A stretch of DNA of 26,293 nt, taken from the IMG/VR virus record IMGVR_UViG_3300046001_002318, positions 1 to 26,293 of that record; one strand, 5' to 3'. Each line of letters opens with the position of its first letter. Positions within the stretch are counted from its first letter, which is position 1. Below, in pieces: positions 1-20,156 of the stretch. Position numbers and translations under genes: made by a program. The notes below the pieces were generated by a model. That model was given only the letters and a program-made list of their open reading frames with translations. It made no database searches and was not told the DNA's origin. The stretch comes from a virus.

Positions 1-1
1 T

Positions 2-715
2 GAAAGACCATATGTAAATCCAACTACGTTAGCAACTTCTGGAACTGCAACAGATATCGCAGCCTATACAGAATATGAAGGTTTGGCAAGATCAATTATT
101 GACTCAATTACTGGCGGATTTTATTATAACAGAACTTACTTAGAGGTTGTTGGTCAAGGAACTGACTACGTTCCCCTATGGAAAAAAACACATAAGATTT
201 TAAAGGCATACGAAAATGCAGAATTAGTTTATGACTTAAACGATACAGTAAATGGACCAGCGCTAAAGTCTTACACATACCTAATAACAAAAGATAAATC
301 TGCAATTACAAAAGATCCACTAGAGACGACTGATTCATTAAATCGTGCTGAAAGAAAATATCCAAATATTCCAGTTGCACCATCAGACTCTATAAGTCTT
401 TTTGATACTGAGGATAGCGGAAACGTACAAACCATCGTTCCAGCAGTAGCCTTTCCAGAAGGAATAGACTGCATCTTTTTACTAGAAACTGGCTACAAGG
501 TAGTTCCAAATGATATTACAGATGCAACAAAAATGTTGATTGAAGACATTAAATGTGGAAAACTAGACTATTACAAGCGCTACATTAAGAACTACAGTAC
601 AGATCAGTTTAAGATTGAATATGATAAGAGAATGATCGACGGTACTGGAAACATACTTGTTGATAAAATTCTTGATAAATACATAGAAACGATTATCCGT
701 CCAGGAGTCTTATAA
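2..715 (+). CDS. Head-tail connector (adaptor) protein, 5' end missing
   Basis: The frame is open from base 2 to the TAA at 713-715, so the gene enters from the left edge; the TTG at 83 is an ordinary internal Leu codon. About 237 residues are present. They are acidic and mixed alpha/beta: helical ends (the last 60 residues are Lys/Asp/Ile-rich helix) flank a central segment rich in Thr, Ser, Pro and Val that probably forms a beta insertion. No catalytic motif is seen. Gene order (first of four small genes before the tail tube) and this architecture suggest the ring that docks under the portal and receives the neck proteins. The family is assigned mainly from position, so a different neck protein is possible. 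It overlaps the next start by one base (TAATG), which favours translational coupling. Confidence 0.6.
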   Translation, partial: ERPYVNPTTLATSGTATDIAAYTEYEGLARSIIDSITGGFYYNRTYLEVVGQGTDYVPLWKKTHKILKAYENAELVYDLNDTVNGPALKSYTYLITKDKSAITKDPLETTDSLNRAERKYPNIPVAPSDSISLFDTEDSGNVQTIVPAVAFPEGIDCIFLLETGYKVVPNDITDATKMLIEDIKCGKLDYYKRYIKNYSTDQFKIEYDKRMIDGTGNILVDKILDKYIETIIRPGVL

Positions 716-1164
716 TGGAATGCTGTCCAGAAACAGATTTCATGTACCCTATGAAGGCTGATATTTATTATCCAATCATAAAGCAAACGCAGTATGGTCA
801 AGCAACAAAAGACTGGGTATTCGATAGAACAATTATTTGCAACGCAACAAGTGTTGGTGGTGCAGGAACAGAAGACATTAAACCAGAAACATTTTTACAA
901 TACGAAAATAAACTTATTGCTAGAACAAAGAGTGATCCAAGAGTATCCTCTACAAATTCTGAAAATGCTATTACAAACATTTTAGTTACAAATGTAAGAA
1001 GTGCTAATGATGACATTGTTTATAGGGAAACAGCAGGTCCAAGGTCTGGCAGAGGAACCATTTATGAAATGGCTACAGTAGAACCTTTTATGGGACCATT
1101 TGGAAATATTGAATTCTTTAAGATGCTCTGGCGCAGGACAGAGAATCAAACAGTGGGTGACTAG
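715..1164 (+). CDS. Probable head-tail stopper (neck) protein
   Basis: 149 residues starting at the ATG that overlaps the upstream TAA by one base; no separate ribosome binding site is obvious, so coupled translation is likely. The N-terminus contains a Cys pair (residues 3-4) followed by a Tyr- and Pro-rich segment; the rest is predicted mostly beta with polar loops (Asn/Thr-rich). Size and place, between the connector and an HK97 gp10-like gene, match head-closure or stopper proteins such as SPP1 gp16 or lambda gpFII-type neck proteins, which plug the channel after DNA packaging. I see no diagnostic motif, so the role rests on synteny. It ends with TAGTG, sharing one base with the next GTG start. 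Confidence 0.5.
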   Translation: MECCPETDFMYPMKADIYYPIIKQTQYGQATKDWVFDRTIICNATSVGGAGTEDIKPETFLQYENKLIARTKSDPRVSSTNSENAITNILVTNVRSANDDIVYRETAGPRSGRGTIYEMATVEPFMGPFGNIEFFKMLWRRTENQTVGD

Positions 1165-1841
1165 TGAGAATAACCACAAACTCAAAAAAGTTTGAGTCTC
1201 AAATGAATAATATAATTCAATACTCTATGGGGTTTTTAGATGGTGTTGAAAATGGTAAAAGAGTATTTTTAAAAAACCTTGGTGCTGGAACAATACAGGC
1301 AATGGCTGCATATGTTGATGTTTCTGCTAAAGGTAATCCAAATGCGCTACACCATGTCTATGAGTGGTATCAAACAGGAAGCCCTAGTGCAAGACTATTT
1401 GATATAGACTATACAGTTAGTAATCTTGGTTTAACATTTAATTCAAAATTTAGACAGTCTAGAACATTAAAAGAAGACTCAAATGTACCTTTCTACAATA
1501 AAGCAAGCATTATGGAGAATGGAGTGCCAGTTACAATAACTCCAAAGAAATCTTCAGTATTAGTTTTTGAACAAGGTGGAGAAACTATTTTTACAAAAAG
1601 TCCAATAACCGTAAGAAATCCAGGTGGCGACTATGTTGCTGGATCATTTGAAAGAACAATAGACGAGTTTATTCTTAAATATTTCAAGCAATCATTTTTA
1701 CGTGCTAGTGGAATATATGATTATATCAAAAAGCCAGTTTTGTATAAAAAGAACTTCAAGGCTGGATCAAAAATGGGTAAATCTAAAGGAGTCGATACTG
1801 GTTTTAGATGGATAGCAAATGCAAAGATTGGTGTAGAATAG
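1164..1841 (+). CDS. HK97 gp10-like neck/tail completion protein
   Basis: 225 residues from a GTG start that shares its G with the upstream TAG stop (TAGTG). The N-terminal ~70 residues form a Lys- and Asn-rich helix (KKFESQMNNI, then a stretch around GKRVFLKNLG) followed by a region containing HHVYEWYQTG, the layout seen in HK97 gp10-like proteins that lie between the head-tail stopper and the tail terminator. A middle beta region follows, and the C-terminal 40 residues are strongly basic (Lys/Tyr-rich). Such proteins help complete the head-tail joint or tail end; the exact role varies between phages. At 225 residues it is longer than the usual 130-170, the extra part being the C-terminal basic section. 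The next gene begins four bases after its stop. Confidence 0.55.
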   Translation: MRITTNSKKFESQMNNIIQYSMGFLDGVENGKRVFLKNLGAGTIQAMAAYVDVSAKGNPNALHHVYEWYQTGSPSARLFDIDYTVSNLGLTFNSKFRQSRTLKEDSNVPFYNKASIMENGVPVTITPKKSSVLVFEQGGETIFTKSPITVRNPGGDYVAGSFERTIDEFILKYFKQSFLRASGIYDYIKKPVLYKKNFKAGSKMGKSKGVDTGFRWIANAKIGVE

Positions 1842-1845
1842 ACCT

Positions 1846-2424
1846 ATGACATTAAATACTTATGCCCAAACTGGATTTCCGCCAACATTTCTTAATGCCT
1901 ATATCAATAGTGAGTTAAAAGAATTTGGATTGATTCCAGATGGACCAAACCCATTCCAACCATTTTTTCCAGCACAGAGCCCAATCAATATAGAAGATAT
2001 TTATAACGATAGTGTTTATATTAAAAACAACCCAAATGCAATTGTTGTTATGTTTGACAGGCTTATTAGATTTAGACCAAATGCATTTTATAGAAATAAA
2101 AGAGAGCAACTTGTATATTTCATTTATGCCCCAGATCTAACTAAACTTTTTGATGCAACCAGAGTAATTATTGAGTGCCTTGATCGAGAAGACGCAGCAG
2201 CCCAAGACCTAAACTCCTGGCTATCAATTAATGATATAGAAGATGAAAATGGAAATGCCATTACAAAAAATGTAATGTTTCATAATATTAAGGTATATCA
2301 GGCAGATGAGGCACGGGACATAGCAGAACTAGCCTCAGCCAGAACCCTATTCTTGAACAAACTTGTCATAGAGTACGATTATCACACAGTAGACACTTTG
2401 GGGACCTCCCAAAGATATACATAA
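1846..2424 (+). CDS. Probable tail terminator protein
   Basis: 192 residues; ATG at 1846, four bases after the preceding TAG, with no strong ribosome binding site. It has an N-terminal helix and Pro-rich loop (residues ~30-50), a strand-rich centre (VYFIYAPDLTKLF around residue 88-100), and a C-terminal strand with YDYHTVDTL. Tail terminators (lambda gpU, SPP1 gp17 type) are small alpha/beta proteins encoded directly before the tail tube gene; they cap the finished tube and join it to the neck. Location immediately before the major tail protein is the main evidence. No motif alone proves the family. Confidence 0.5.
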   Translation: MTLNTYAQTGFPPTFLNAYINSELKEFGLIPDGPNPFQPFFPAQSPINIEDIYNDSVYIKNNPNAIVVMFDRLIRFRPNAFYRNKREQLVYFIYAPDLTKLFDATRVIIECLDREDAAAQDLNSWLSINDIEDENGNAITKNVMFHNIKVYQADEARDIAELASARTLFLNKLVIEYDYHTVDTLGTSQRYT

Positions 2425-2430
2425 AAATGC

Positions 2431-2439
2431 TGTTATAAT
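2431..2439 (+). promoter_or_regulatory. Extended -10 promoter (P1) for the major tail protein
   Basis: TGTTATAAT: a perfect TATAAT at 2434-2439 with an upstream TG in extended -10 register. I see no -35 hexamer at 16-18 bases. It lies in the 77-base gap just before the tail tube gene and would give a leader of about 55 bases. Confidence 0.55.
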
Positions 2440-2484
2440 TATCATGAGGAAACACAAACGCCGTACAACTTAATATCTATTCTT

Positions 2485-2496
2485 AAGGAAGAGGTG
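2485..2496 (+). promoter_or_regulatory. Strong ribosome binding site of the major tail protein
   Basis: AAGGAAGAGGTG, five bases before the ATG at 2502; two overlapping Shine-Dalgarno-like cores (AAGGA and GAGGTG). It fits high expression of the tail tube subunit and fixes the start. Confidence 0.7.
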
Positions 2497-2501
2497 AATA
2501 A

Positions 2502-3140
2502 ATGGCATACAGTCGTGGAACGTCGTCCAACATTATCGTTGGTGCAGCAGCACTTTTCGTTGCAGACACAACCCTAACTCCAAATACATTGGAGAACTTT
2601 AGTACTGAAGTATCATTCAGAGAGACACTCTCAGAGGATGCAGACTATACAAACGTAGGTTACACCATGAACGGTCTAGAAATGCAGTTCCAACCAGACT
2701 TCGGTGAAGTCCAGGTAGACCAAATTCTTGACGTTGCAAAACTTTACAAGCAGGGCATGCAGGTTAATCTTGCAACTGCTTTCGCTGAAGCAACACTAGA
2801 GAATCTTCTCTTGGCTTTGGCATTCGGTTCAGACGAACTAACTGGAAACGTAGCAACTCACACAGGTAAGACATTAAACTTATCTGCAGGAGATATCGGC
2901 GAATGTCCAGTAGAGCGTGGAATTGTTGCAGTAGGACCTGGTACAGGTGACTGCGTAGACTCTCCATTCGTGGAGCGTGTTTACACAGCATACCGTGCTT
3001 TGTCAATCGAAAACGTAACAGTTTCAGCAAAGCGTGATGAGGCTTCAATGTTTGAAGTTTCTTTCCGTTTGCTACCAGAAGATACTTCAGGCTCATATGG
3101 TAAGATCGTTGATCGTACCTTCGGAGACCTATTGTCTTAA
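2502..3140 (+). CDS. Major tail tube protein
   Basis: 212 residues, Ala/Thr/Val-rich and acidic, with the alternating strand pattern and short repeated loops of siphovirus tail tube subunits that stack as hexamers around the tape measure. It is the only gene in this half with its own promoter, a strong ribosome binding site and its own terminator, as expected for the most abundant tail protein. By my count seven of eight Arg codons are CGT and one AGA, whereas AGA dominates in the large minor-tail genes, which also suggests selection for high expression. It sits between the tail terminator and the tail assembly chaperones, the canonical position. Family assignment rests on position, size and composition rather than on a catalytic motif. 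Confidence 0.75.
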   Translation: MAYSRGTSSNIIVGAAALFVADTTLTPNTLENFSTEVSFRETLSEDADYTNVGYTMNGLEMQFQPDFGEVQVDQILDVAKLYKQGMQVNLATAFAEATLENLLLALAFGSDELTGNVATHTGKTLNLSAGDIGECPVERGIVAVGPGTGDCVDSPFVERVYTAYRALSIENVTVSAKRDEASMFEVSFRLLPEDTSGSYGKIVDRTFGDLLS

Positions 3141-3159
3141 TAGTTTAACTATACATCAG

Positions 3160-3193
3160 AGCCCATGTCTTCGGATGTGGGCTTTGTTGTTTT
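3160..3193 (+). terminator. Intrinsic terminator with UUCG tetraloop
   Basis: Stem AGCCCATGTC (3160-3169) pairs with GATGTGGGCT (3174-3183): ten pairs including two G-U wobbles. The loop is TTCG closed by C-G, the very stable cUUCGg tetraloop. A T-rich tail (TTTGTTGTTTT) ends at 3193. It lies 20 bases after the tail tube stop and would isolate that gene from the chaperones. Confidence 0.85.
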
Positions 3194-3194
3194 A

Positions 3195-3203
3195 TGGTAG
3201 AAT
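3195..3203 (+). promoter_or_regulatory. Extended -10 (P2) giving a near-leaderless chaperone mRNA
   Basis: TGGTAGAAT with the hexamer TAGAAT at 3198-3203, starting two bases after the terminator T-tract. The ATG of the long chaperone is at 3213, nine bases after the hexamer, so the transcript would begin at or within about three bases of the start codon. No -35 is evident. Confidence 0.5.
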
Positions 3204-3212
3204 AGAATTTCT

Positions 3213-3908
3213 ATGGCAACTACAATATATAAAAGTGAAATAATACATTTATTTGATGGCACAGAATTAGAGATAATGCCATTAAAGATTAAATATCTAC
3301 GTGAATTTATGCAGGCATTTGAAAATGTCAAGGTAACTAAAAATGATGACGAAGCAATCGCAGCCTTAGTAGAATGTGTTCGGGTGTGCATGAAACAGTA
3401 CTATCCATCAATATCTGGAAGTGTTGAAGATGTTGAAGATAGCATTGATATGCCAACAATCTACAAAGTTTTAGATGTCTCTGCTGGAATTAGAATTAAT
3501 AAAAAATCTGAAGAGCCAGTAAAAGATCAAGCAGTAGAAAGTGGTTCTACTTGGGATGACTTAGATCTTGCCAAGTTGGAGTCAGAGGTATTTTTGCTGG
3601 GTATATGGAAAGACTATCAAGAACTAGAATTATCACTATCTATGCCAGAACTCATGGCTACTTTAGAGGTAAGCAGAGAGTTAGATTATGCAGAAAAGAA
3701 ATTTATGGCTGCTATTCAGGGTGTTGATCTAGATGCAGAATCTGGAAAAGGCAAGGGACAACAAGAATGGGAAGACATGAAAGCAAGAGTATTTAGCAAA
3801 GGTCAAACAAATGATTCAAATGATATTTTATCTTTTCAAGGACCTAAAGCCCAAAAAGCAGGGTTTGGTATTGGAATGGGATTAGACTACGAAAATTTAA
3901 CACAATAA
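3213..3908 (+). CDS. Tail assembly chaperone, long form (gpGT-like)
   Basis: 231 residues in one uninterrupted frame. Residues 1-~96 are a G domain clearly paralogous to the next gene: shared MATT start, PLKI, FM..FE, ECV, M.QY.P, PT.YKV, roughly 35-40% identical by hand alignment. A linker follows (KSEEPVKDQ region), then a T domain (~115-231) with YQELELSLSMPELMATLE and a C-terminal GFGIGMGLDY segment. In lambda-type phages the equivalent protein (gpGT) is made only by -1 frameshifting; it coats the tape measure and recruits tail tube subunits. Here the fusion is encoded directly. There is no Shine-Dalgarno sequence before the ATG (bases 3204-3212 are aatttct-like), which suggests leaderless or weak initiation and a low amount of product. 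Arg codons are mixed. Confidence 0.75.
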   Translation: MATTIYKSEIIHLFDGTELEIMPLKIKYLREFMQAFENVKVTKNDDEAIAALVECVRVCMKQYYPSISGSVEDVEDSIDMPTIYKVLDVSAGIRINKKSEEPVKDQAVESGSTWDDLDLAKLESEVFLLGIWKDYQELELSLSMPELMATLEVSRELDYAEKKFMAAIQGVDLDAESGKGKGQQEWEDMKARVFSKGQTNDSNDILSFQGPKAQKAGFGIGMGLDYENLTQ

Positions 3909-3925
3909 GCGTTTTATGCTATAAT
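3897..3925 (+). promoter_or_regulatory. Near-consensus promoter (P3) for the short chaperone
   Basis: -35 TTAACA at 3897-3902, a 17-base spacer, then TATAAT at 3920-3925 preceded by TG at 3917-3918 (extended -10). The -35 overlaps the last codons of the long chaperone. This is one of the two best promoters in the window. Confidence 0.75.
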
Positions 3926-3940
3926 TGAGTTAACCTATAT

Positions 3941-3946
3941 AGGAGG
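3941..3946 (+). promoter_or_regulatory. AGGAGG ribosome binding site of the short chaperone
   Basis: A full-consensus AGGAGG, four bases before the ATG at 3951. It contrasts with the absent site of the paralogous long form. Confidence 0.8.
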
Positions 3947-3950
3947 AATA

Positions 3951-4283
3951 ATGGCAACAACAGTACATGAGGGCACAGAACTAACTCTTATGGATGGGTC
4001 AAAGATTAAGGTACGTCCACTTAAAATCTCTTTGCTTCGTCCATTTATGAAGAAGTTCGAACAGGTAGCAGGGGTGGCAGAAGATAACGAGAAGTCAATG
4101 ACTCTTCTTATTGAATGTGTACAAATTGCAATGGAGCAGTACAACCCAGACTTGTCTACAGATATTAACAAACTAGAAGAGATCCTAGATCTCCCAACAG
4201 TCTACAAGGTTATTGAAGCCGCTTCTGGAGTTAAGTTAACAGATGCAAACAACTTGTTAAACACAGTTCTTGCAAATAACTAA
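3951..4283 (+). CDS. Tail assembly chaperone, short form (gpG-like)
   Basis: 110 residues, aligned over nearly its full length with the G domain of the preceding gene (MATT, PLKI, ECV, QY, PT.YKV, then SG) and ending soon after the point where the long form enters its linker. It is therefore a stand-alone G protein, the form made in large excess in lambda. It has its own promoter and AGGAGG, and both of its Arg codons are CGT. Together with the next gene it makes the usual chaperone-tape measure pair. The -1 frame near its end closes at once (TAA), so no frameshifted T extension exists here. It probably arose by duplication and loss of the T part, or the long form arose by fusion; the direction is not shown. 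Confidence 0.75.
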   Translation: MATTVHEGTELTLMDGSKIKVRPLKISLLRPFMKKFEQVAGVAEDNEKSMTLLIECVQIAMEQYNPDLSTDINKLEEILDLPTVYKVIEAASGVKLTDANNLLNTVLANN

Positions 4284-4305
4284 TTAATAAAAGAGGTGTA
4301 AATGA

Positions 4306-7300
4306 ATGGCTGATGTAAATGCTAATATTGGCGTACATATTGATACGTCAGCGGCACTGGCAGAACTTAAAAACTTACAGCGTCAATTAGCGACATTTCA
4401 TTCATCTGTAGCAAAGAATAGTGCAGCCTCAGCAGCAGCACAGAAAAATCTACAGACAAACCTTTTAAATTCTATCAATGCCACTGGCAAATTCTCTGCC
4501 CAGATGGGGTTGGTAAGAACTTCAACGGAGTCGTTTACTCACGCACTGGAGAAAAATAAACTCTCTATGCGTGAGTATTTCCGTTATGCAGGCGGATCTA
4601 CTAAAACATTCGGAAAGTTATTTAGACAAGAATTTGACACAATTGGCAAGGTAGCCGAAGAGCGTGTCAAAAAGATGCAGACCCAGTATATCAAGATGGG
4701 TCGTGATGCATCTGGTGCAATGAAGGCAATGGCAATCACACCAAGAACTTTGGATATGAATGATTATGCTACAAAAACAGCCTTAGCAGCACAGAAGCAA
4801 GCATTATTTAATCAGTTAATTAAGCAGGGGTCTACCAACCTGTTGAACTTTGGTAAGAATACTCAGTGGGCAGGTCGCCAGTTAATGGTTGGCTTTACCG
4901 TACCCCTTGCATATTTTGGCACAGCAGCAGCAAAAACATTTATGGATCTTGAGGCGCAGGCTGTTAAGTTTAAGCGTGTTTATGGAGACATGTTTACAAC
5001 TACAGATGAAACTACTAAGGCTCTTGCTGACATTGAGGCTCTTGCTGAACAATTTACAAAATATGGTGTATCTGCAGTTAAGACTATGGAACTTGCTTCA
5101 CAGGCTGCAGCAATGGGTAAAACTGGAGCAGATCTAACAGCCCAAGTAGCAGAAGCAAATAGACTTGCTGTTCTTGGCGGGGTAGAACAAACACAAGCAC
5201 TAGAAACAACCATATCACTTACAAATGCATTTGGTATAGCATCAGAAGATTTAGCAAAAAAGATTGACTTCCTTAACTCAGTAGAAAACCAAACAGTTGT
5301 ATCTATTGAAGATTTAACAATTGCAATACCAAAGGCTGGACCAGTTGTAAAGCAACTTGGAGGAGATGTAGAAGATCTAGCATTCTTCCTTACTGCGATG
5401 AAGGAAGGCGGAATTAATGCATCAGAAGGTGCTAACGCACTTAAGTCTGGTCTTGCTTCTCTTATTAATCCAACTAAAAAGGCTAGCGATATGCTTGCTG
5501 GATTTGGTATTAACATTAAAGCAATTGTTGAGGGCAATCAAGGAAACATTAGACAAACAGTTATTGACTTCTCAAGAGCACTAGATACACTAGACCCCCT
5601 TAATCGCGCCCGTGCCATTGAACAACTATTTGGTAAGTTTCAGTTCTCACGTCTTTCTACACTATTTCAGAACGTAACAAAAGATGGAACACAGGCTAGC
5701 AGGGTTTTACAACTTGCTGGATCTTCTATTGAACAACTTGCTATATTGTCAGAACGAGAATTAAAAACAGTAGAAGATGCTGTTGGTACCCAGTTTAAGT
5801 CAGCAGTGGAAGAACTTAAATTAGCAATTGCTCCAATTGGAAAGACATTCCTTGAAGCGGTTACTCCAATCGTTAGAGTTATTGGAGACATCCTTGATAA
5901 GTTTAACAACCTTGGAGAGGGAACAAAGAAATTTATTGTAATTGCCTCTACTCTTGTTGGTATTATTGGTCCAACACTTTTAATGACCTTTGGTTTGCTT
6001 GCTAACGGTGTAGCAAATATTATTAAACTATTCCTTGCTCTTCGTGGTGGATTCTTAAAACTTGGTGGTAACTCAAAGATTCTTGCACAACAAACAGACT
6101 ATTTAAACACAGAACAGATGGAAGCGGCAACAGTTGCTGCATCTCTTAACCAAGCACATACAAGACTTACACAATCATTTACAGCAGAAACATCTGCAGT
6201 AAGATTACTTCGCCAAGCATATATTGATGCTACCGTAGCAGCAGCCAACTTTGCTAGAGCAAACCCAGGTATGATGATGCCAGGTAGAGGTGGTGCTCCA
6301 AAGAAGTTTGCAAGAGGAACAACATCTGTACCAGGACGTGGAAAAAAAGATAATGTTCCTGCAGTGCTTATGCCTGGAGAAGCGGTAATCCCAACAGATA
6401 TTGCACAAGATCCACAGTATCAGCCAATTATTGAAGCAATGATGAATGGAACATTACAAGCATTTGGTAATGGTACTGGAGATGCACAGCCATTTGCTAA
6501 CTCTCCACAGTTCCAACCAAAGATGGATCTAAGCGGACCTTCAGCACAAGTTCTTAATACTAATCCAAGAGCAGTAAATGATCTTGTTTTAGGTAAATCA
6601 TCATTCACAGAAACTAACGAAGCCTTTGCTGCAAGAAACGCAGCACTCCTTGCAAAAATGAATGCAAGAAAAAATCCAGTAGATGTTACTACTGGTAAAA
6701 CTGTTTTTGCACATGCTGTTGATAATAGAGTTTTAACTGGTGCAGGAGTTCCAACCTCTATTCAGGCTGGTGGCTTTACAAAAGCAACTGCATTCTCTGC
6801 CATTGGGTTTGACTTAAGTCCATCTGTAAACTCTAGACTTATTGCTGGAACAGTGCCTACATCAGAATATTTAAAAGAAATTAAATCACCTTTATCAACA
6901 CAAACTATGACTGCTAGACTTATAGACCTTGGTGCATCTCCAAGAGAGGCTGCACGTGTAACTGAGGTTATGAAGAGCAACCTTATAAGGTCGCTAGAAA
7001 CATTGCCTCCAGACAAACTTATTGGTGACAAAGACATTTATTCAAGAATGGGTAATTTAAAAACTGGAATTCTTGGAGGAATGGTTAAAAAATCTAAGGG
7101 TGGAGCATTTGGAAATGCAGTAAAACAACTTTATGCAAATACAACGTTTAGTCCATCTGGAAAATCTTCAGTTGCAATGAATTCAACTGCTCCAATTGGT
7201 TCAGTTATTGATGCTATTAAAAAAACAAAAACTTCACAAGCAGTTCTTAAACCATTAGAGGCTTTAAGAAGAATGGATCCAAACTATAGAATTCCAGTAA

Positions 7301-10300
7301 GGCTTGACGCAAATGGTAACATTACAGCCTACGATAGACCAGAAATAAGTAAAAAAACTGGACAAATAACCAGCACAAGAAATGTTGGAGTTTTAAATGG
7401 TGATAAGTTTGTGGTTGGAAGACAGCAACGTGGTGGTGGAAGAAAACTTACGGTAAGTAAAAAGGCTGGACAGTTAGCATCAGAACAACTACTTGGTACA
7501 ACAAAAACTGGAGTTGTTAGTGGTCAGACTGGAACAGCAAAGCCTACTACAACAACTGTAACTGGTGGGGCTCCTACAGACCGTCGTGTTGTTGGAGTTG
7601 GTAAGGGTGAGGCTGTTCTTAATAAAAAAACGACATCAGCACTTAAAGGTGGAAGAACTGCGTTTATCCCAGGTCTTGGAAGAATTAGAATTGCAGGTGC
7701 TGATCAGGGCATTCCAACAGGTCAAAAAACTGGAAGTACCACAGTTGGAGCGGTATCACAATCAGCACAACTATCTCGTGCACAGTTAATAGCAGCAACA
7801 GAAAAGATAAGTTTAAAAGAAGCAAAGCGTAGAATAGCAGCAGAAAGAAAACTTACTACATCTATGGAAGAGTCTACAAAGGCTCAGATGACAACAAAGG
7901 AAAGACTAACCCAGTTTAGTTCTAAAGCAGGTGTTGGAATTGGAGCAATGAGTGGTTTGACTATTGCTGCTTCATTTGCTGGTGGTCAAGTTGGAGAAAT
8001 GGCACAAAAAATTATGCCATTTGTATTTGGTTTACAAGGTATAACAATGCTACTTCCACTACTTGCTAATCCTTGGGTAGCAGCAATTGCAGCAATTGCA
8101 GTTGTTGGTGGAGTATTTATAAAGATGGCTAAAGATGTTGAAAATGCTAGAAAGGCTGGAGTTGATCTTGCTAAATCTATGAACATGACATCTGATAAAC
8201 TTCAAGGTCTTGCAGAGACAACTGGAACAGTCAGCGCTTCAGAAGAGGCAAACAGGAAAAGAGAAGGTATTCTAACTGGTGAAGATGCTGTTCAAAGAAA
8301 ATTTGGTCAAAACATTCTTGGTAGTGATTTCGGTAAAGGCTTATTAGCAGATATTGAAAAACAAGCAGAGGCTGGTCAAGGAATTCAAGATATTGGTAGA
8401 AACATATCAAATAGTCTTGCCTATGCAATTGTTCAAGGAGTTATAACAACAGATCAAGCAAAAAGTATATCTTCTGCACTTGGTGAAGAGTTAAAGAGTT
8501 ATGAAATACCAGCAATTGTTAGCGGTAGACTGACTACTCTGCTTGGACCAAATGGTGAAAATCTTGCAACAGATCCACTAAAGGTTACCATTGCAATTCA
8601 AGAAGAATCAATGACAAGGCAGGCTGATTTCTTTAAGACTGCTCTAGAAAATATAAAGCCAACCGTTGGACTTAGTGCTACCCAAACTATACTTGGGGCA
8701 ACAGGTGCTGGTGCTGTAATCGGTGGAGGTATTGGTCTTGCAGGTGGACCATTTTCTCCCGTTACTGCAACAGGAGGAGCCATTGCTGGAGGTGTAGTAG
8801 GTGCAATTGGCGGTGTGGGTGCTGCTCTTAGTGAAAAGGGAGCAAGAGAAAGTAACGCTAACCTTGGGGCTGCTGCACTTCAACTTGGACTAGAACAAGT
8901 ATCAATGAATAATGGATTGGTTGATTCCTTAAATAAACAATATGATGTTAAAGTTAAGATGGCTAAGACAGATAAAGAAATTAAAAAAATTGAAAAAGAA
9001 AGAAAAGCGGCACTCGATACACTTAATGCAAAAAATGCAGAAGCGTTAAATCTTCTTATTGCACAAAAAGACAACTTCGGCGCTGATATATTTACAAAGG
9101 GTATCAATGCAGCAATAGATACACTTTATAAAGATGGACCAATGAAGGTTTTTGCTGATGAAGCAAAGAAGTCTTTAGAAAGCATTAAGGATGCAGACTT
9201 TAAGGCAATGCTTCAGGTTCAATTTGCCAGTGGATCACTTGACCCAGTAACAATTATGAAACTTGCCAATAATCAAGAATTGCAAAGTAAGTTTACAGTT
9301 CTTGTTGAAGAACAGGGTAGTGAAAATGCAAACTTAGTAATGCAACTACTTATGAAGGCTGGAACAAATGATACCAACCTTCCTATCTTTATGGACATTA
9401 TAAATAAAGATCCTGACAGTTTTGATAAAAATATGAAGGCTATTTCAGTTCTTGCTAACATGCAGCAGAAGTATGGAATAACAATTGATGTTAATGATGA
9501 TGGAGCAACACAAATAGCAGAAGTTGTTGCAATAACTGAAAAATTAGCAGGAATAACTGGAGAAGAATTAACAAAAGAAGCCTTCCTTGATCTTGGTATT
9601 ACTGGAAATATGACAGGACCAGAATTTGATGCGTTGTGGAAAACTCTTGTTGGCACATCAAAAACAATTAATAAAAGTGTAATTGTTGACTTTGTTGCTG
9701 CTGGAGATAGAAATGTATTGTCTGCATATCTTGCTTCACAAGGAATTACACAACTTAGAGGTAGAGGTGCTGCATCGCAAAGAAAAGCCTATCTGGATAA
9801 GGCAAAGGCTGATCTTGTTGGAAGACAAGGCAAGGTAGACCCAAATGCTATTCCTGGCGGTACAGGTGGAACAGGTGGAGACACAGGTGCAAGAGACACA
9901 ACACTAGACGATATTTTAAATAGACTAAAGATGGTTCGTGAGCAATCGATTAAGGCTACTGGCGGAGTAAAAGAATTATTAAGGGTAACTGGTGGTAAAG
10001 GTTTAACTCAATTTGGCGGAGTAATGCAAGATTTACTTAAAACTCCTGGCGGAATAAATAGAGAGTTCCTTGACTTTATTAATCAAATGGATGATAAAAC
10101 TCGTAAAATTTATTTAACAGAAAAAAATGGCACTGCAATATTAACAGGTAAAGGTAAAGCACTTAAAGAAGCCTATGATGAAGCCATAATTGGTGAGTAT
10201 CAATACTCACAACAGGAAAGTCTAGATGCCGCTAAGGGTCAACTTGCTGCTCTTCAAAAATTAAAAGATGCTGGAGTTCCTACTGCACAGGCAGTTGAAA

Positions 10301-12132
10301 TGGTTGCTGATGCTCAATTGGCTATAGCAATTAATGGAGAAGATATTAGTTCTGAAGAATTAAAGAGAATGGCAGAAGATGCCAAATTTGCCGCAGATGA
10401 ACTTGAAAGAGTTGGCGTTGCATTAAAACTGGCAACTCCTGCTGGAAAAATAGAAATAGTCCAAGGAGAACTATCAAAGGCAAATGATTACTTTGATAAG
10501 CAAAGTGCTTTAATTGAACAGCAAAGAGAAGCAGCGCCAGCATATAAGGCTCTTACATCTACAATAGAAAAACAAACACAGGCAATTGAAGATGCAAACG
10601 ATGAGATAGATGGATATCAATCTAGTATAGATGTTATACAGCGTGAACTTGAAGTAAATGCTATTTATGGTAGTAGAGTAATCGATAATCTTAATGCACA
10701 GGTTGATATATTAAATAGAACTGCTGAATTAGATTTTGACAGACCTCTTGCAAACTTAAGCGATGAGTCTAATATTCTTTCAAACACACTTGGACTTATT
10801 GATAGAGCCCAGGATAAGATTAATAAAAAGTATGATGCTCAAGAAGAAGCCTTGTCAAAGATATCACAACTTAATTCTGAAATTGCGGGGCAAGAAAAAC
10901 AAAGGCTTACACTTGCTGACGCATTAAGTCAGGGAGATATTTCTGCAGCCGCTGCTGCTGCTCAAGAAATGAGAGCAACTGCTGCCGAGGCTGCTTCACG
11001 CAGATCATCTGGAACACTTGCCGCTGCACGAGAAGCAGAGATTGGTGCAGTATCAGTTAGTGGAATGACAAGAGTTCAAATTGAAGAACGTCAATTCCAA
11101 ATAGGTCAACAAACATTTGCACTAGAACAACAGCGTCAAATTGTTGAAGCCAACATTCAAAGAATTCAGGATGCTGTTTATGCTAAGGAACAGTTAAGAC
11201 TTCCCCAGATAGCAGCAATACAAGGATATCAAGACAAAATTTATGCAGTACAAACATTGCAGTTAATTCCTTCACAAAAAATTCTTGAAGATACTACTAA
11301 AGCCAAAGAAGCATATGAAAAAATAACTCAAGATTCTATTGATCAGTTAACTTATCTTACAAGGACACAGGAACAATGGATAACAATAAACACTGAACTA
11401 GTTGCTGCAGAATCTATGAATAAAAAAATTGAAGATGAAACTTCTGCATCTGCAATTGCAGCAAAGGATATTTTGGACAATTGGACAAAAACCAAGCCAA
11501 AACTTGATGAATCAATTAAACCTGCAACTGATCTTAAAGGAGTTATTGCAGAGTCAGCAACAAAGTCTGCAAGTATACTAGCATCTTGGAATGCTTTAAA
11601 TAAAACCTTTACGACTACCCACATTATTAATACTGTTTATACTTCAAGCGGTGGTGGGGGATCAACAGGAGGCACTGGTAGTGGTGGTGGTGCTAAAGGC
11701 AGTGTACAGTTGAAGGCTTATGGCGGTAAGATTATGCCAATGAACTATGGTGGAATGGTTCCTAAGTATATGGCTATGGGTGGTGCAGTTGGATCTGATA
11801 CAGTACCAGCCATGTTAACCCCTGGAGAATTTGTAATGAATAGGGCTGCAACTAAACAATTTGGTCCAATGCTTAATGAGATGAATAACTCCAAATTTCC
11901 TTCAATGATTGAAGGTATGACTCCAGCAGTCTATTCATCTAATAACTCATCTATAGTTTCTCCAACTATTACTTCTGTAGCAACAACTGTTTCAGATAAC
12001 TCAAGCACCATGTATAATTATAATATTGGAATTACTGTTCCACAATCAAGTGCAAGTTCTAACGATATTGCTAGAGCAGTAATCGGTCAGATTAAGTATA
12101 TTGATTCACAGAGAATTAGAGGGCAGAAATAA
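4306..12132 (+). CDS. Tape measure protein (very long)
   Basis: 2608 residues; ATG at 4306 with AAGAGGTG at 4291-4298. The ATG at 4302 is out of frame and stops after three codons. The tape measure fills the tail tube, fixes its length and enters or aids the channel at the host membrane. Residues ~190-520 match the phage minor-tail/TMP domain (a hydrophobic patch around VGFTVPLAYFGTAAAKTF, then helical repeats with AAAMGKTG and EGGINASEGANALKSGL). Hydrophobic segments lie near 194-213, 542-579, 1208-1276 and a Gly-zipper at 1454-1510. Residues ~656-1180 are Gly/Thr/Pro-rich and not coiled-coil-like. A long coiled coil covers ~1990-2420. The C-terminus carries DTVPAMLTPGEFVMN at ~2498-2512, a motif common in tape measures. 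At about 1.5 angstrom per residue the ceiling is a tail near 390 nm. Confidence 0.93.
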   Translation: MADVNANIGVHIDTSAALAELKNLQRQLATFHSSVAKNSAASAAAQKNLQTNLLNSINATGKFSAQMGLVRTSTESFTHALEKNKLSMREYFRYAGGSTKTFGKLFRQEFDTIGKVAEERVKKMQTQYIKMGRDASGAMKAMAITPRTLDMNDYATKTALAAQKQALFNQLIKQGSTNLLNFGKNTQWAGRQLMVGFTVPLAYFGTAAAKTFMDLEAQAVKFKRVYGDMFTTTDETTKALADIEALAEQFTKYGVSAVKTMELASQAAAMGKTGADLTAQVAEANRLAVLGGVEQTQALETTISLTNAFGIASEDLAKKIDFLNSVENQTVVSIEDLTIAIPKAGPVVKQLGGDVEDLAFFLTAMKEGGINASEGANALKSGLASLINPTKKASDMLAGFGINIKAIVEGNQGNIRQTVIDFSRALDTLDPLNRARAIEQLFGKFQFSRLSTLFQNVTKDGTQASRVLQLAGSSIEQLAILSERELKTVEDAVGTQFKSAVEELKLAIAPIGKTFLEAVTPIVRVIGDILDKFNNLGEGTKKFIVIASTLVGIIGPTLLMTFGLLANGVANIIKLFLALRGGFLKLGGNSKILAQQTDYLNTEQMEAATVAASLNQAHTRLTQSFTAETSAVRLLRQAYIDATVAAANFARANPGMMMPGRGGAPKKFARGTTSVPGRGKKDNVPAVLMPGEAVIPTDIAQDPQYQPIIEAMMNGTLQAFGNGTGDAQPFANSPQFQPKMDLSGPSAQVLNTNPRAVNDLVLGKSSFTETNEAFAARNAALLAKMNARKNPVDVTTGKTVFAHAVDNRVLTGAGVPTSIQAGGFTKATAFSAIGFDLSPSVNSRLIAGTVPTSEYLKEIKSPLSTQTMTARLIDLGASPREAARVTEVMKSNLIRSLETLPPDKLIGDKDIYSRMGNLKTGILGGMVKKSKGGAFGNAVKQLYANTTFSPSGKSSVAMNSTAPIGSVIDAIKKTKTSQAVLKPLEALRRMDPNYRIPVRLDANGNITAYDRPEISKKTGQITSTRNVGVLNGDKFVVGRQQRGGGRKLTVSKKAGQLASEQLLGTTKTGVVSGQTGTAKPTTTTVTGGAPTDRRVVGVGKGEAVLNKKTTSALKGGRTAFIPGLGRIRIAGADQGIPTGQKTGSTTVGAVSQSAQLSRAQLIAATEKISLKEAKRRIAAERKLTTSMEESTKAQMTTKERLTQFSSKAGVGIGAMSGLTIAASFAGGQVGEMAQKIMPFVFGLQGITMLLPLLANPWVAAIAAIAVVGGVFIKMAKDVENARKAGVDLAKSMNMTSDKLQGLAETTGTVSASEEANRKREGILTGEDAVQRKFGQNILGSDFGKGLLADIEKQAEAGQGIQDIGRNISNSLAYAIVQGVITTDQAKSISSALGEELKSYEIPAIVSGRLTTLLGPNGENLATDPLKVTIAIQEESMTRQADFFKTALENIKPTVGLSATQTILGATGAGAVIGGGIGLAGGPFSPVTATGGAIAGGVVGAIGGVGAALSEKGARESNANLGAAALQLGLEQVSMNNGLVDSLNKQYDVKVKMAKTDKEIKKIEKERKAALDTLNAKNAEALNLLIAQKDNFGADIFTKGINAAIDTLYKDGPMKVFADEAKKSLESIKDADFKAMLQVQFASGSLDPVTIMKLANNQELQSKFTVLVEEQGSENANLVMQLLMKAGTNDTNLPIFMDIINKDPDSFDKNMKAISVLANMQQKYGITIDVNDDGATQIAEVVAITEKLAGITGEELTKEAFLDLGITGNMTGPEFDALWKTLVGTSKTINKSVIVDFVAAGDRNVLSAYLASQGITQLRGRGAASQRKAYLDKAKADLVGRQGKVDPNAIPGGTGGTGGDTGARDTTLDDILNRLKMVREQSIKATGGVKELLRVTGGKGLTQFGGVMQDLLKTPGGINREFLDFINQMDDKTRKIYLTEKNGTAILTGKGKALKEAYDEAIIGEYQYSQQESLDAAKGQLAALQKLKDAGVPTAQAVEMVADAQLAIAINGEDISSEELKRMAEDAKFAADELERVGVALKLATPAGKIEIVQGELSKANDYFDKQSALIEQQREAAPAYKALTSTIEKQTQAIEDANDEIDGYQSSIDVIQRELEVNAIYGSRVIDNLNAQVDILNRTAELDFDRPLANLSDESNILSNTLGLIDRAQDKINKKYDAQEEALSKISQLNSEIAGQEKQRLTLADALSQGDISAAAAAAQEMRATAAEAASRRSSGTLAAAREAEIGAVSVSGMTRVQIEERQFQIGQQTFALEQQRQIVEANIQRIQDAVYAKEQLRLPQIAAIQGYQDKIYAVQTLQLIPSQKILEDTTKAKEAYEKITQDSIDQLTYLTRTQEQWITINTELVAAESMNKKIEDETSASAIAAKDILDNWTKTKPKLDESIKPATDLKGVIAESATKSASILASWNALNKTFTTTHIINTVYTSSGGGGSTGGTGSGGGAKGSVQLKAYGGKIMPMNYGGMVPKYMAMGGAVGSDTVPAMLTPGEFVMNRAATKQFGPMLNEMNNSKFPSMIEGMTPAVYSSNNSSIVSPTITSVATTVSDNSSTMYNYNIGITVPQSSASSNDIARAVIGQIKYIDSQRIRGQK

Positions 12133-12773
12133 TGGCTACCGCAGCATATTTAACAGGTCGTCGTAGATATCAACGTCCACAGGCTCTGCTTTGGTCTGAG
12201 AACGCTGGAACTCTACAAGATGGAGTTTATGTACCAGTAGGGTATGAAATAGGCGTAGATGCCCCAGAGGGGGCTGACGAAGCCCTTCTAGACCAGTTCC
12301 TTATCCTATCTGACCATAATCGAGGGGAACTTCAATTTAAACCAACAAGAATAGAACAACGTCAAAGAACTATCAATGGTAGGATGAGGTCTTATCATAT
12401 TGCAGATAAGTTAACTATGTCCCTATCTTGGAATAATCTTCCATCTAGAGGTTTTCATTTACCTGCCGATTTTAATCCTACAACTGGATCTTCTCCCTAC
12501 AAAAATGTATCAGGTCAAGAATATACAGCAGACGGTGGCGCTGGTGGCGTAGAACTACTTGACTGGTATGAAAATCATCAGGGTCCATTCTGGATGTATC
12601 TAGCATATGATAAGTATAGTAATTTTGGCAAGGACAATGCTGCTTATGGTCACCTAGCACAATATAATCAAATTATGCAAGTTTATTTTGCTGACTTTAA
12701 TTATACTGTTGTAAAACGTGGTGGTAACAACCATGATCTTTGGAATATTTCGGTAACGCTGGAAGAGGTCTAG
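12132..12773 (+). CDS. Minor tail protein, distal tail type
   Basis: 213 residues; the ATG overlaps the tape measure TAA by one base (TAATG). The sequence is rich in aromatic and Gly residues, with predicted beta strands (LTMSLSWNNLP, GPFWMYLAYDKYSNF, IMQVYFADFNYTVV) and ends in a strand with WNISVTLEEV, the kind of ending seen in distal tail and tail-tube-like domains. The gene directly after the tape measure in siphoviruses normally encodes the distal tail protein (Dit), the ring that joins tube and hub. That position, and the large hub-like protein that follows two bases later, support a Dit-type role; sequence alone does not prove it. Confidence 0.55.
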   Translation: MATAAYLTGRRRYQRPQALLWSENAGTLQDGVYVPVGYEIGVDAPEGADEALLDQFLILSDHNRGELQFKPTRIEQRQRTINGRMRSYHIADKLTMSLSWNNLPSRGFHLPADFNPTTGSSPYKNVSGQEYTADGGAGGVELLDWYENHQGPFWMYLAYDKYSNFGKDNAAYGHLAQYNQIMQVYFADFNYTVVKRGGNNHDLWNISVTLEEV

Positions 12774-12774
12774 A

Positions 12775-15700
12775 GTGTTTGTAAATGAAGAATTAAAAAC
12801 ACATCTACAAACATCTGCAACAGTTAAGTTGCAATCACTTGTTTTGGCTGAGTGGAATATGAATATGCCAGATAATATATTTAAACTTGGCAACTACAGA
12901 TACAGACCATTTGATAATACATCCCAATACTTTACATTGCCAAACGACTTTGATCAGTTAGACGCTGGAAATTATTTTACAGGCGCAACGGATGCTGATG
13001 TTGTGATTGACGGTGGTTTTACCAATAGTGACGTTCCTCAACTATTTACATCAATTAAAGATAAGATGAAGATGATATACTCTTTAGAGGATTGCCTAAA
13101 ACCATTTAGACCCAGATCTGGAATTAATAAACCTTTATATTTTAGTAATAGATTTATAGCAAACTCTGGTGCATCTATGGCACAAAGACCAAGATATTAT
13201 ATGCCTTCAAGATATGATGAGTTTAAGTATTGGACATCATACAGAACAGAAAACAATATTGAGCGCGGCATTGCAAAAAATATATCAAACAACCTTTATT
13301 ATATTGATGATGCAGTTCCATTTGTTGTGTATAAAAATAACGTACCAACAAATAGAATTGTTATAAAGATGCAGACAAATGTTGGAGATGTAGACCTTGG
13401 ACCCTTTACAACTGCAACCACATCAATAACTGACCCACTATTTGGAACACTAAACAAGACAACTCCAAGCAGATGGAAGGTCCAGTACCTAAAAGAAAAT
13501 AGTTGGGTTGATGCATATTCCTTTAGAGAAAATGATACACGTACTTCTGGTGAACCAATTATAGATACTGATGGATATGTAGAACTTGAATATGGCTTAA
13601 TTATTCCAGAAGAATACAAAGACTCTTTTATTTTTGCTTCAACATTATCGTCTGATATATTGTTACCAGAAACATCTGTTGAAGGCTATGCATATCTTAT
13701 TATTGAAAATGAGGGGGATCGTGGAACATTTCATATATGGACTAATGGCGACTATGCAACATTTACCCCACAATATGGATGGCAACTAGGTTCAGAAGAG
13801 GTTGCAAATAATACAAACTTTGTAACCGACTTAACATCTCCAGACTCATTTGATAACGATATTTCGGGGGATTTAACTTATAGAGAGTTTCAATATATAC
13901 GTGGTATCAGAGTTGTAGTAGACACAATGAATAAATTTGACTCTACCTTTGATCTTATCGAAATGTCTCCTAGATTAGTGCTTGATATTTCTAATAAGGT
14001 TGTTGATTTTAAAATTACAAAAACACTTTCTGATATTGGTATAACATCTTTACCAGTTGGACAACTTCTTGCTTCAAATGGAACCATATCTTTGTTTGAC
14101 GACGATCAAGCATTTAATGAAAATAACTCATCAAGTATTGTTGCAGACTATATTCGCAAAAATATAAAATTTAATTTTTACGAAATAATTTTAGATGTCG
14201 ATGGGTTTGACTATTACGTTCCAATTAAAACTTTATACTCAGAAGGTTTTCCTCAAGCGGACGTTACTGCTGGAACAATATCAATTAGCCTTAGAGATTT
14301 TTTCTTTTTTTTAGAGTCAATGCCAGCACCAAGATTATTAACAACTCAAACATCTTTAAGTTATGCCATAACAACTCTTCTTGACTATATTGGTTTTACA
14401 AACTATACATTTAGAAGAACAACTGGAGAATCAGATCCAATCATCCCATACTTTTTTGTTGCACCAGATCAAAACGTTGCACAGGTTTTAAATCAACTAG
14501 CCCTAGCAACACAAACAGCAATGTTTTTTGATGAGTATAACAACTTTATAGTAATGAGTAAAGATTATTTAATGCCAACCGAGGCTCAAAGATCAACAGA
14601 CTTTATTTTTTCAGGATCAAACAATCAAATAGATGCAGGGGTAACCGAGAATGCAACATCTGGAAACTTGCCAAACATCCTCTCTATAGCATCACAAGAT
14701 AAAAAGATTTATAATGATGGAAAAATTAACTATACAACTAGATATATTCAACGAACCTATGGATCTATTGAACAGCCATTTTTTCTTGCAAGTGAAAAAA
14801 CTTGGCTATATAAACCATCTTTACTTTGGGAAGTTTCTGGCACAGATAAACTAAAAACCGTTAACTCATTAACACAAAAAGGTAGTGCTTATGTTTTAGG
14901 GGCAATGCCACTAAACTCAATATTATCTTCAGCAGTACCTACAGTAGTAAACCATTCAGTTATTAATAATATAGTTGATTTAGGTGAAAATATTTATTGG
15001 CTAACCAGATATGATGGATATCTATATTCAAATGGTGAAATTATTAGGTATGACGCTGCCGAGTTTAATGTTACTGGAACTGGAAACGTATGGATTAGTA
15101 GTAACCAAGAATATCAAAGATATTTTTCATCAATACCTTTTAATGGTAAAATTTATCCAACGGGATTAATTAGAATATATTCAACTCCATATTATGAAAC
15201 CGTTGACGGAATAACAAGATTACAAAATGGAGCAGTTGTTGACCATGGTCGTGGTCAGTTTGGTACAACTGTAACTGAGCATACTGCTGGTATAAGTGAT
15301 TACTGGTCTAATAACGATTATGTTCGTGGATGTAATATGCAGGCTGGCTTTATGTTTACAACACAATTAGATGAAGATGTTACATACCCAGCAACTACTG
15401 TTGGTGCAGCAGGCGTTGACAATGTTCTTGCAAAACAAACAACACGCAATGGAATTATTAAAAACTTTATGGCAACCAATTATTTAACTGAAACACAGGT
15501 TAATAACTTAAAAAGCACTCAGACTGGAACTATTCAATCATCTGCATTTGTTATGAATGGTCCATCATTTAAAACTACAGATGTTCCACTTAATTTTGTA
15601 TCTTATGTTTATAAATCACTTAATAATGCCTATAAACATTTTGGAACAAGAATGAGAATAGTTGGTAAAATTGAAAACAATACTAGTAGAACTCAGACCC

Positions 15701-19694: not shown

Positions 19695-19703
19695 TGATAT
19701 AAT
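19695..19703 (+). promoter_or_regulatory. Possible extended -10 promoter (P4)
   Basis: TGATATAAT with TATAAT at 19698-19703, beginning right after the TAA of the preceding gene. The ATG at 19713 lies nine bases after the hexamer, the same geometry as P2. A GGAGAG (19704-19709) sits between, so a read-through mRNA could also be translated. No clear -35. Confidence 0.35.
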
Positions 19704-19712
19704 GGAGAGATA

Positions 19713-20156
19713 ATGGCTAAAGTACCGCTACCAGAACGAGGACAACCGCTAGATGTTACATATATCTATCAGTTGGCTGATACTATTAATGATTTATCAA
19801 CACAGGTTTCATCAGCAACCTACAACTACACAACAGTCGATACGGTTAGTGCTGGTAAGCAGAGTGTAAAAACTTCTGAGGCTAGAATGATTGGGGGATA
19901 TGTTGAAATTGCAAACAACTCAACAGTATCCGCTGGAAACGAAAAAACATTTTCATATGATTTTCCAAGTGATTTTAAGTATCAACCAATAGCAACGGCT
20001 ACTATAATCAACGTTGGAAACACACCTGCTGGTCAAAACGCAACTGTTATTTTAAAAGTAGTTACAACATCTAGGGTAGAAGGAATCGTAAGATTCGGTG
20101 CTTCTGGAGACCTGTCTTTAGCAGTTAATTTAATTATTCTTGGCATACCAAACTAA
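19713..20156 (+). CDS. Small tail fibre / tip protein
   Basis: 147 residues; ATG at 19713 preceded by GGAGAG. It begins PLPERGQPLDVTYIYQLADTI followed by a helix (NDLSTQV), an N-terminal pattern I associate with small structural genes of marine and freshwater tailed phages. The rest is beta-rich (FSYDFPSDFKYQPIATATII, VILKVVTTSRVEG, a C-terminal LAVNLIILGIP), compatible with a trimeric beta-sandwich head such as a receptor-binding tip. The helix-then-sandwich design supports a short fibre; the role is inferred. Confidence 0.5.
   Translation: MAKVPLPERGQPLDVTYIYQLADTINDLSTQVSSATYNYTTVDTVSAGKQSVKTSEARMIGGYVEIANNSTVSAGNEKTFSYDFPSDFKYQPIATATIINVGNTPAGQNATVILKVVTTSRVEGIVRFGASGDLSLAVNLIILGIPN

Follow-up and report, generated by a model that had tools for sequence, protein, structure and literature searches.

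Two paralogous tail assembly chaperone genes in tandem

We analyzed a stretch of viral DNA of 26,293 nucleotides (nt) with a guanine-cytosine (GC) content of 37% (IMG/VR record IMGVR_UViG_3300046001_002318, positions 1 to 26,293), which is referred to here as the window. Its plus strand carries two tandem open reading frames (ORFs), which are likely to encode the long (GT) and the short (G) tail assembly chaperone of a long-tailed phage. The ORF of the fused chaperone GT (3213..3908, + strand) encodes 231 amino acids (aa), with a G-like domain at approximately aa 1-100, a linker, and then a T-like domain. The ORF of the separate chaperone G (3951..4283, + strand) encodes 110 aa and is a paralogue of the N-terminal domain of GT. 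An earlier note on this DNA, made from the sequence alone, had described a long protein with both domains in one frame, a short protein paralogous to its G part and no T extension of the short gene, and had proposed that both forms are made independently of frameshifting. The first three of these claims were borne out. Both proteins match phrog_10504 (E 3.9e-23 for GT and 2.8e-20 for G), and GT alone of the pair also matches phrog_10474, through aa 131-197. Judged by these profiles, the ORF at 3213-3908 is an in-frame fusion of G-like and T-like tail assembly chaperone domains. G and the N terminus of GT share 36 of 96 residues (38% identity; E=6e-28 in BLASTP), and their local alignment reached a score of 220, compared to a best score of 55 among 2000 shuffles. 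The paralogy of G and GT is therefore far above chance. No T-like extension follows the separate G in any frame up to the tape measure gene. Short and long forms with a common N-terminal domain are thus present and encoded by two paralogous genes.

The same domain assignment was obtained across the lineage: all 40 GT proteins scanned match both phrog_10504 and phrog_10474 (E<=0.001), and phrog_10504 was also matched by 46 of 46 G-type proteins scanned (39 separate Gs and seven Gs from the frameshift loci described below; E<=0.1). The earlier note had considered that the short protein could be structurally unrelated to the N-terminal domain of the long one, or that the pair could be two unrelated neck genes. 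Neither applies. In the AlphaFold2 models, with a mean predicted local distance difference test score of 74.6 for GT and 78.2 for G, the common part is predicted to consist of two strands and four helices in the same order and at nearly equal positions, so that the predicted secondary structure of G matches the N-terminal domain of GT element by element. The two genes are paralogues with phrog_10504 in common, and they lie between the genes for the major tail protein and the tape measure protein. The predicted folds bear a weak likeness to solved chaperones. The HK97 tail assembly chaperone 2OB9 was the first VIA match for GT (Z 4.3, root mean square deviation 4.6, 86 aligned residues) and ranked seventh for G (Z 4.4, root mean square deviation 4.7, 89 aligned residues), and both of these matches are weak. 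Among the viral structures of BFVD, the closest named tail assembly chaperone was A0A6J5QVP5 for both proteins (E 8.3e-05 for GT, 2e-07 for G), and two unnamed BFVD proteins outscore it for GT. Neither protein matched Pfam at E<=1, and Foldseek against the PDB gave no match for GT below E 1.

The upstream neighbor (2502..3140, + strand) encodes the major tail protein and was assigned to phrog_2175 ('protein with Ig domain') with E 1.6e-32; 'major tail protein' is the annotation of its syntenic counterpart in the Streptomyces phages Coruscant, Circinus, and EGole. The downstream neighbor (4306..12132, + strand) encodes a tape measure protein of 2608 aa, whose first 1000 aa match phrog_10030 (E 2e-102) and PhageMin_Tail (E 2.3e-27). 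The chaperone locus lies between the genes for these two proteins in six annotated Streptomyces phages, namely the ones with a named major tail or Ig-domain protein, and in the Rhodococcus phage NiceHouse. A tblastn search of 50,697 phage records returned 132 records with a match, 127 from Streptomyces phages and five from Rhodococcus phages. Many of the matched genes are annotated as 'tail assembly chaperone' (Streptomyces, E down to 5e-33), others as 'hypothetical protein'. Judging from these relatives, the host group of the phage is probably the actinobacteria. A scan of genome contigs gave no relative and thus pointed to no prophage or host. The window was also without matches in a tRNA scan and in Rfam at gathering scores.

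Relatives contain either the gene pair or a frameshift layout

The survey of related genomes that the earlier note had suggested covered 306 sequences, comprising 305 loci (numbered with the prefix L) and the window. The underlying scans took the best 80 of 355, the best 80 of at least 572, and the best 80 of 91 relatives; because only the best matches were retained, the sample is skewed toward the kin of the window. A fused GT followed by a separate G was found in 265 of the 306 sequences (164 distinct), of which three are the window itself (the window, L159, and L160). Thirty sequences (27 distinct) have a single G, followed by T in the -1 frame, and we refer to these as frameshift loci. A further eight carry a fused GT and end 1-122 nt past it, with the start of a G gene still visible in three (L050, L180, and L263). 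The remaining three loci are cut or damaged. A search with the T domain of a frameshift locus, chosen as a query that should not favor fused loci, returned 43 loci, comprising 31 fused pairs, ten frameshift loci, and two cut fused loci. In the frameshift loci, the sequence extends at least 378 nt past T in all cases and more than 2400 nt in 27 of 30, so that a neighboring second G would mostly have shown up. The frameshift layout is found in some environmental relatives and also in all 11 reference phages examined from the 132 matched records (nine Streptomyces, two Rhodococcus), each with one G whose 3' end is overlapped by T in the -1 frame. The annotation of NiceHouse includes a frameshift join. 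One locus with a split GT, L134, was considered as an intermediate and rejected. It has a short tandem duplication within T at 4600-4650, probably an assembly error or a damaged copy, and was excluded from rates, trees, and census.

We then compared the sites at which frameshifting could occur. Of the 30 frameshift loci, 20 have a heptamer of the type XXXYYYZ, mostly CCCAAAT, in the G frame within the G/T overlap. In the other ten (L161, L163, L244-L250, and L305), CCCGGAA stands at the start of the overlap and does not fit the XXXYYYZ pattern. We looked for CCCAAAN and CCCGGAA in frame in the fused lineage, namely in 164 GT junctions and in the 3'-terminal 25 codons of 158 complete separate Gs, and found neither. 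The window has no XXXYYYZ heptamer at the GT junction or at the 3' end of G, and its pair does not show the hallmarks of frameshift-dependent G/GT synthesis, which are a T in another frame over the 3' end of G together with a slippery site. A low GC content alone does not account for the heptamer loss, since the frameshift locus L253 has 36% GC compared to 37% in the window. The -1 layout of the homologues, together with the absence of their heptamers from the fused lineage, supports the proposal of the earlier note that this lineage makes both forms in a frameshift-independent manner, as far as can be deduced from sequence.

GT and G are preceded by contrasting expression signals

In the window, the gene for the major tail protein and GT are separated by a hairpin that resembles an intrinsic terminator (3157..3196, + strand), with a stem-loop of 13 pairs at 3157-3186 and a T-rich tail. 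This stem is the largest of 13 terminator-like sites in positions 1-13000 (both strands), and the fold z score of the region 3150-3212 is -4.81. GT itself is preceded by the extended -10 element TGGTAGAAT (3195..3203, + strand), which ends 9 nt 5' of the start codon, and lacks a Shine-Dalgarno (SD) sequence. Transcription starts about 7 nt past a -10 hexamer, and GT is predicted to have a leaderless or near-leaderless start. Among the 21 window genes listed, GT is the only one that pairs an extended -10 element no more than 10 nt from the start with an SD match of no more than 3 nt. The signals of G are of a different type. A promoter-like site at 3897..3925 (+ strand), which overlaps the 3' end of GT, consists of TTAACA, a spacer of 17 nt, and TATAAT with a TG extension (3917-3925). 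With 11 of 12 matches, it is the best of 34 such sites in positions 1-13000. It is followed by the SD sequence AGGAGG (3941..3946, + strand), 4 nt 5' of the ATG.

These signals were followed through 163 distinct fused loci; loci with less than 100 nt of upstream sequence and repeated sequences were excluded. A terminator-like hairpin lies upstream of GT in 161 of the 163 loci, compared to 5.2 expected from base shuffles, which preserve base composition only. The extended -10 element TGNTANNNT ends 4-10 nt before the start of GT in 157 loci, and none of the 163 has an SD sequence of at least 5 nt upstream of GT. For G, a perfect TGNTATAAT ends 20-45 nt before the start in all 163 loci, 160 have an SD sequence of at least 5 nt, and no locus has a terminator-like site within 60 nt upstream. 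Further comparisons were made with representatives picked for low sequence overlap (40 fused and 16 frameshift loci). In the 40 fused representatives, the -10 hexamer of G is better than that of GT in 35 cases, equal in five, and worse in none. Starts of the tape measure gene served as control: of 36 such starts (three of 39 representatives gave no start), none has either type of -10 element or a terminator, and 27 have an SD sequence. We also inspected the single G of 25 frameshift loci, and its signals are mostly of the G type, with no near -10 element, 19 far ones (14 of them perfect), 23 SD sequences, and 24 terminators.

Two further sites in the window were noted. A perfect extended -10 element (TGTTATAAT, 2431-2439) lies approximately 62 nt 5' of the gene for the major tail protein; this gene may thus be served by a promoter of its own, with a longer leader. 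Another one (TGATATAAT, in the region 19695-19713) ends 9 nt before the start of a 147-aa ORF at 19713, with GGAG 5 nt before the start; this ORF is possibly a second near-leaderless gene.

A probable single switch from frameshifting to two genes

The relationships of the loci were examined in trees, in which support is given as values of the Shimodaira-Hasegawa-like approximate likelihood ratio test (SH-aLRT). In a tree of 95 G domains, the N-terminal domains of GT form one group (97) and the separate Gs another (91), and the frameshift loci L278 and L290 adjoin the group of separate Gs (86). A second tree was calculated from the neighboring genes, using the major tail protein and the N-terminal region of the tape measure protein (53 rows, 809 columns). 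Here, all 38 fused loci fall into one clade (98), L278 and L290 are its sister (100), and the other frameshift loci lie outside. NiceHouse (L299), whose G is very diverged and which formed a very long branch in a first T-domain tree, was left out of the G tree, the neighbor-gene tree, the topology test described below, and the promoter census of the frameshift loci. The Rhodococcus phage Trina (L298) was left out of trees and census, and L151 and L284 lacked tape measure sequence for the neighbor-gene tree. The simplest reading of these trees is that there was probably one ancestral switch from frameshifting to two genes. Both genes are under purifying selection, with a median ratio of nonsynonymous to synonymous substitution rates of 0.081 for GT and 0.101 for G (400 pairs per gene at 80-95% identity, from 158 distinct loci).

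A two-promoter model and its alternatives

The most far-reaching reading of these sequence comparisons, for which we estimate a probability of about 0.58, is that an uncultured, probably actinobacterial phage lineage dropped frameshifting once in favor of a circuit with two promoters and two modes of initiation, in which a terminator-insulated, weak and leaderless GT is followed by a G with a strong promoter and an SD sequence, nested in the same transcript, and that the clade, as far as sampled, retained this arrangement. In our preferred explanation, which we consider likely, the ancestor probably obtained both forms from one gene via -1 programmed frameshifting. In the lineage of the window, the G part would then have been duplicated; one copy would have been joined in frame to T, and the other would have been left with neither a T nor the slippery heptamer of the relatives. 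The two layouts emerge directly from the comparison, and from them we infer the polarity and the order of these steps. The terminator would curb readthrough from the gene for the major tail protein into GT. For GT, the promoter would be an extended -10 element that mostly departs from the consensus, and the message would be leaderless with no SD sequence; G would be expressed from a second, perfect extended -10 promoter with a strong SD sequence. No terminator-like site lies within 60 nt upstream of G, so the transcript of GT should include G as well, beside a second, stronger G message. G should therefore exceed GT, as it would be encoded on the GT transcript and also be expressed from its own, presumably stronger promoter. 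The excess of G over GT would thus probably be set by transcription and translation initiation. By analogy to lambda, G would bind the tape measure protein and the rarer GT would recruit the tail tube protein.

Several observations weigh against this explanation. The -10 hexamer of GT is a perfect TATAAT in 26 of the 163 loci, and the near -10 element is absent in six. Promoter strength and leaderless initiation are deduced from consensus matches, and GT need not be scarce, because leaderless messages, which are common in mycobacteria, can be robustly translated there according to PMC4633059. XXXYYYZ heptamers other than those of the relatives were seen at 28 of 164 distinct GT junctions. They were also seen in the 3' ends of 32 of 158 separate Gs, where they are mostly TTTAAAT and no T frame lies downstream of them. 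Among the 40 fused representatives, such heptamers were found in five G ends and seven GT junctions (the G of L284 is cut by the contig end). Because of these heptamers, residual recoding may occur in part of the fused lineage. The neighbor-gene tree resulted from a quick search and is midpoint-rooted, with long branches flagged, and in the first T-domain tree, L278 and L290 came out within the fused group. With respect to the assignment as chaperones, the VIA matches to solved chaperones all have Z<5 and are tied with unrelated helical proteins, and profile searches of PDB sequences were empty for GT and yielded four matches for G, all with E 0.2 or worse.

The two promoters could also serve timing, with GT and G made at similar levels or at different times. 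The distinct promoters and initiation types of GT and G would suit this alternative, as would robust translation of the leaderless GT message of the kind described for mycobacteria. But the bias in hexamer quality toward G is never reversed in the representatives, and in lambda the G:GT ratio, which is 30:1, is called crucial (PMC5009743). We therefore consider this alternative unlikely.

A second alternative accepts the pair as real and assumes that GT additionally yields a short product by frameshifting or slippage near its junction, leaving the separate G with a different or auxiliary role. This would be consistent with the 28 GT junctions that carry an XXXYYYZ heptamer in frame and with a run of six As near the junction of the window. 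Within the junctions, there were 17 occurrences of A-AAA-AAN, of which 15 lie at two adjacent codons; this heptamer may reflect either lysine codon use or a leftover slippage site. However, the other 136 junctions have no heptamer, and the window has none at all. Moreover, the separate G is under purifying selection and has the better -10 element and the SD sequence, in the same layout as the single G of most frameshift relatives. This alternative thus appears improbable.

It is also conceivable that the fused form is ancestral and that the frameshift relatives descend from it through a split of the fusion and loss of the second G. The trees were midpoint-rooted for drawing, and the G tree alone would permit the N-terminal domains of GT as an outer branch. 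But the frameshift loci branch off successively outside the fused clade in the neighbor-gene tree, the Rhodococcus phages, which are absent from this tree, also have the frameshift layout, and frameshifting is widespread among long-tailed phages (PMC5009743). We regard this polarity as quite improbable. A more limited reversal, namely a return to frameshifting in L278 and L290 as suggested by their position in the first T-domain tree, was rejected. It is contradicted by the neighbor-gene tree (98 for the fused clade, 100 for this clade with L278 and L290), and a T-domain tree with the fused loci held together had a higher likelihood (p 0.657 in the approximately unbiased test).

Finally, that the hairpins and -10-like sites are chance products or by-products of AT-rich intergenic sequence is very improbable: promoter-like matches in positions 1-13000 of the 37% GC window are not enriched overall (34 compared to 38.4 expected), but the placement of the GT and G elements is nearly invariant with none swapped, the tape measure starts have neither, and base-shuffled upstream regions of 40 representatives gave rates of 2.1-2.9% for a TG-extended -10 element with at least five matches and of 0.25-0.4% for a perfect one.

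Comparison with known systems

In lambda, G and GT have the G domain in common and act in tail assembly, and GT arises from one gene by low-level -1 frameshifting; the ratio and the binding roles of both proteins are described in the same source, which also reports wide conservation of the tail chaperone frameshift across long-tailed phages (PMC5009743). In the window, by contrast, GT is an in-frame fusion, and a second gene encodes G. Described relatives include the Stanwilliamsviridae (for example, the Streptomyces phages Coruscant, Circinus, and EGole) and the Rhodococcus phages Trina and NiceHouse, which encode a homologous T domain at the same place. Their G domain is clearly homologous in the Streptomyces phages and a weak match (15-16 bits) in the Rhodococcus phages. 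Unlike the window, these phages lack a second G; their only G is overlapped by T in the -1 frame, with a slippery-type heptamer where the two overlap.

Both solutions are found within one set of related phages, and the probable switch between them is located on a tree, which amounts to a natural experiment on why frameshifting usually persists. With it, one can ask whether selection keeps the ratio rather than the recoding, and can weigh recoding against control by promoters and initiation for a single pair of proteins. Annotators who expect a slippery sequence at this position should also be cautious.

The two-gene principle is already known from T4-like phages, some of which have one short and one longer fused chaperone gene (Vladimirov, Gautam and Davidson 2022, Virology 566:9-15, as cited in PMC10885494), and the arrangement described here is a variant of it. 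Among the literature matches listed, it was not found outside the T4-like phages. As described there, the likeness is that a short gene stands beside a separate long gene that corresponds to the short one plus an extension in one frame, and the pair in the window has this organization. Compared with that description, the lineage of the window differs in two respects: its nearest relatives retain the frameshift layout, which allows the switch to be located on a tree, and its GT and G carry consistently contrasting promoter and ribosome-binding signals. As far as the literature matches listed show, what is new is the occurrence of two genes among phages with frameshift relatives, the placement of a single switch, and the contrasting expression signals.
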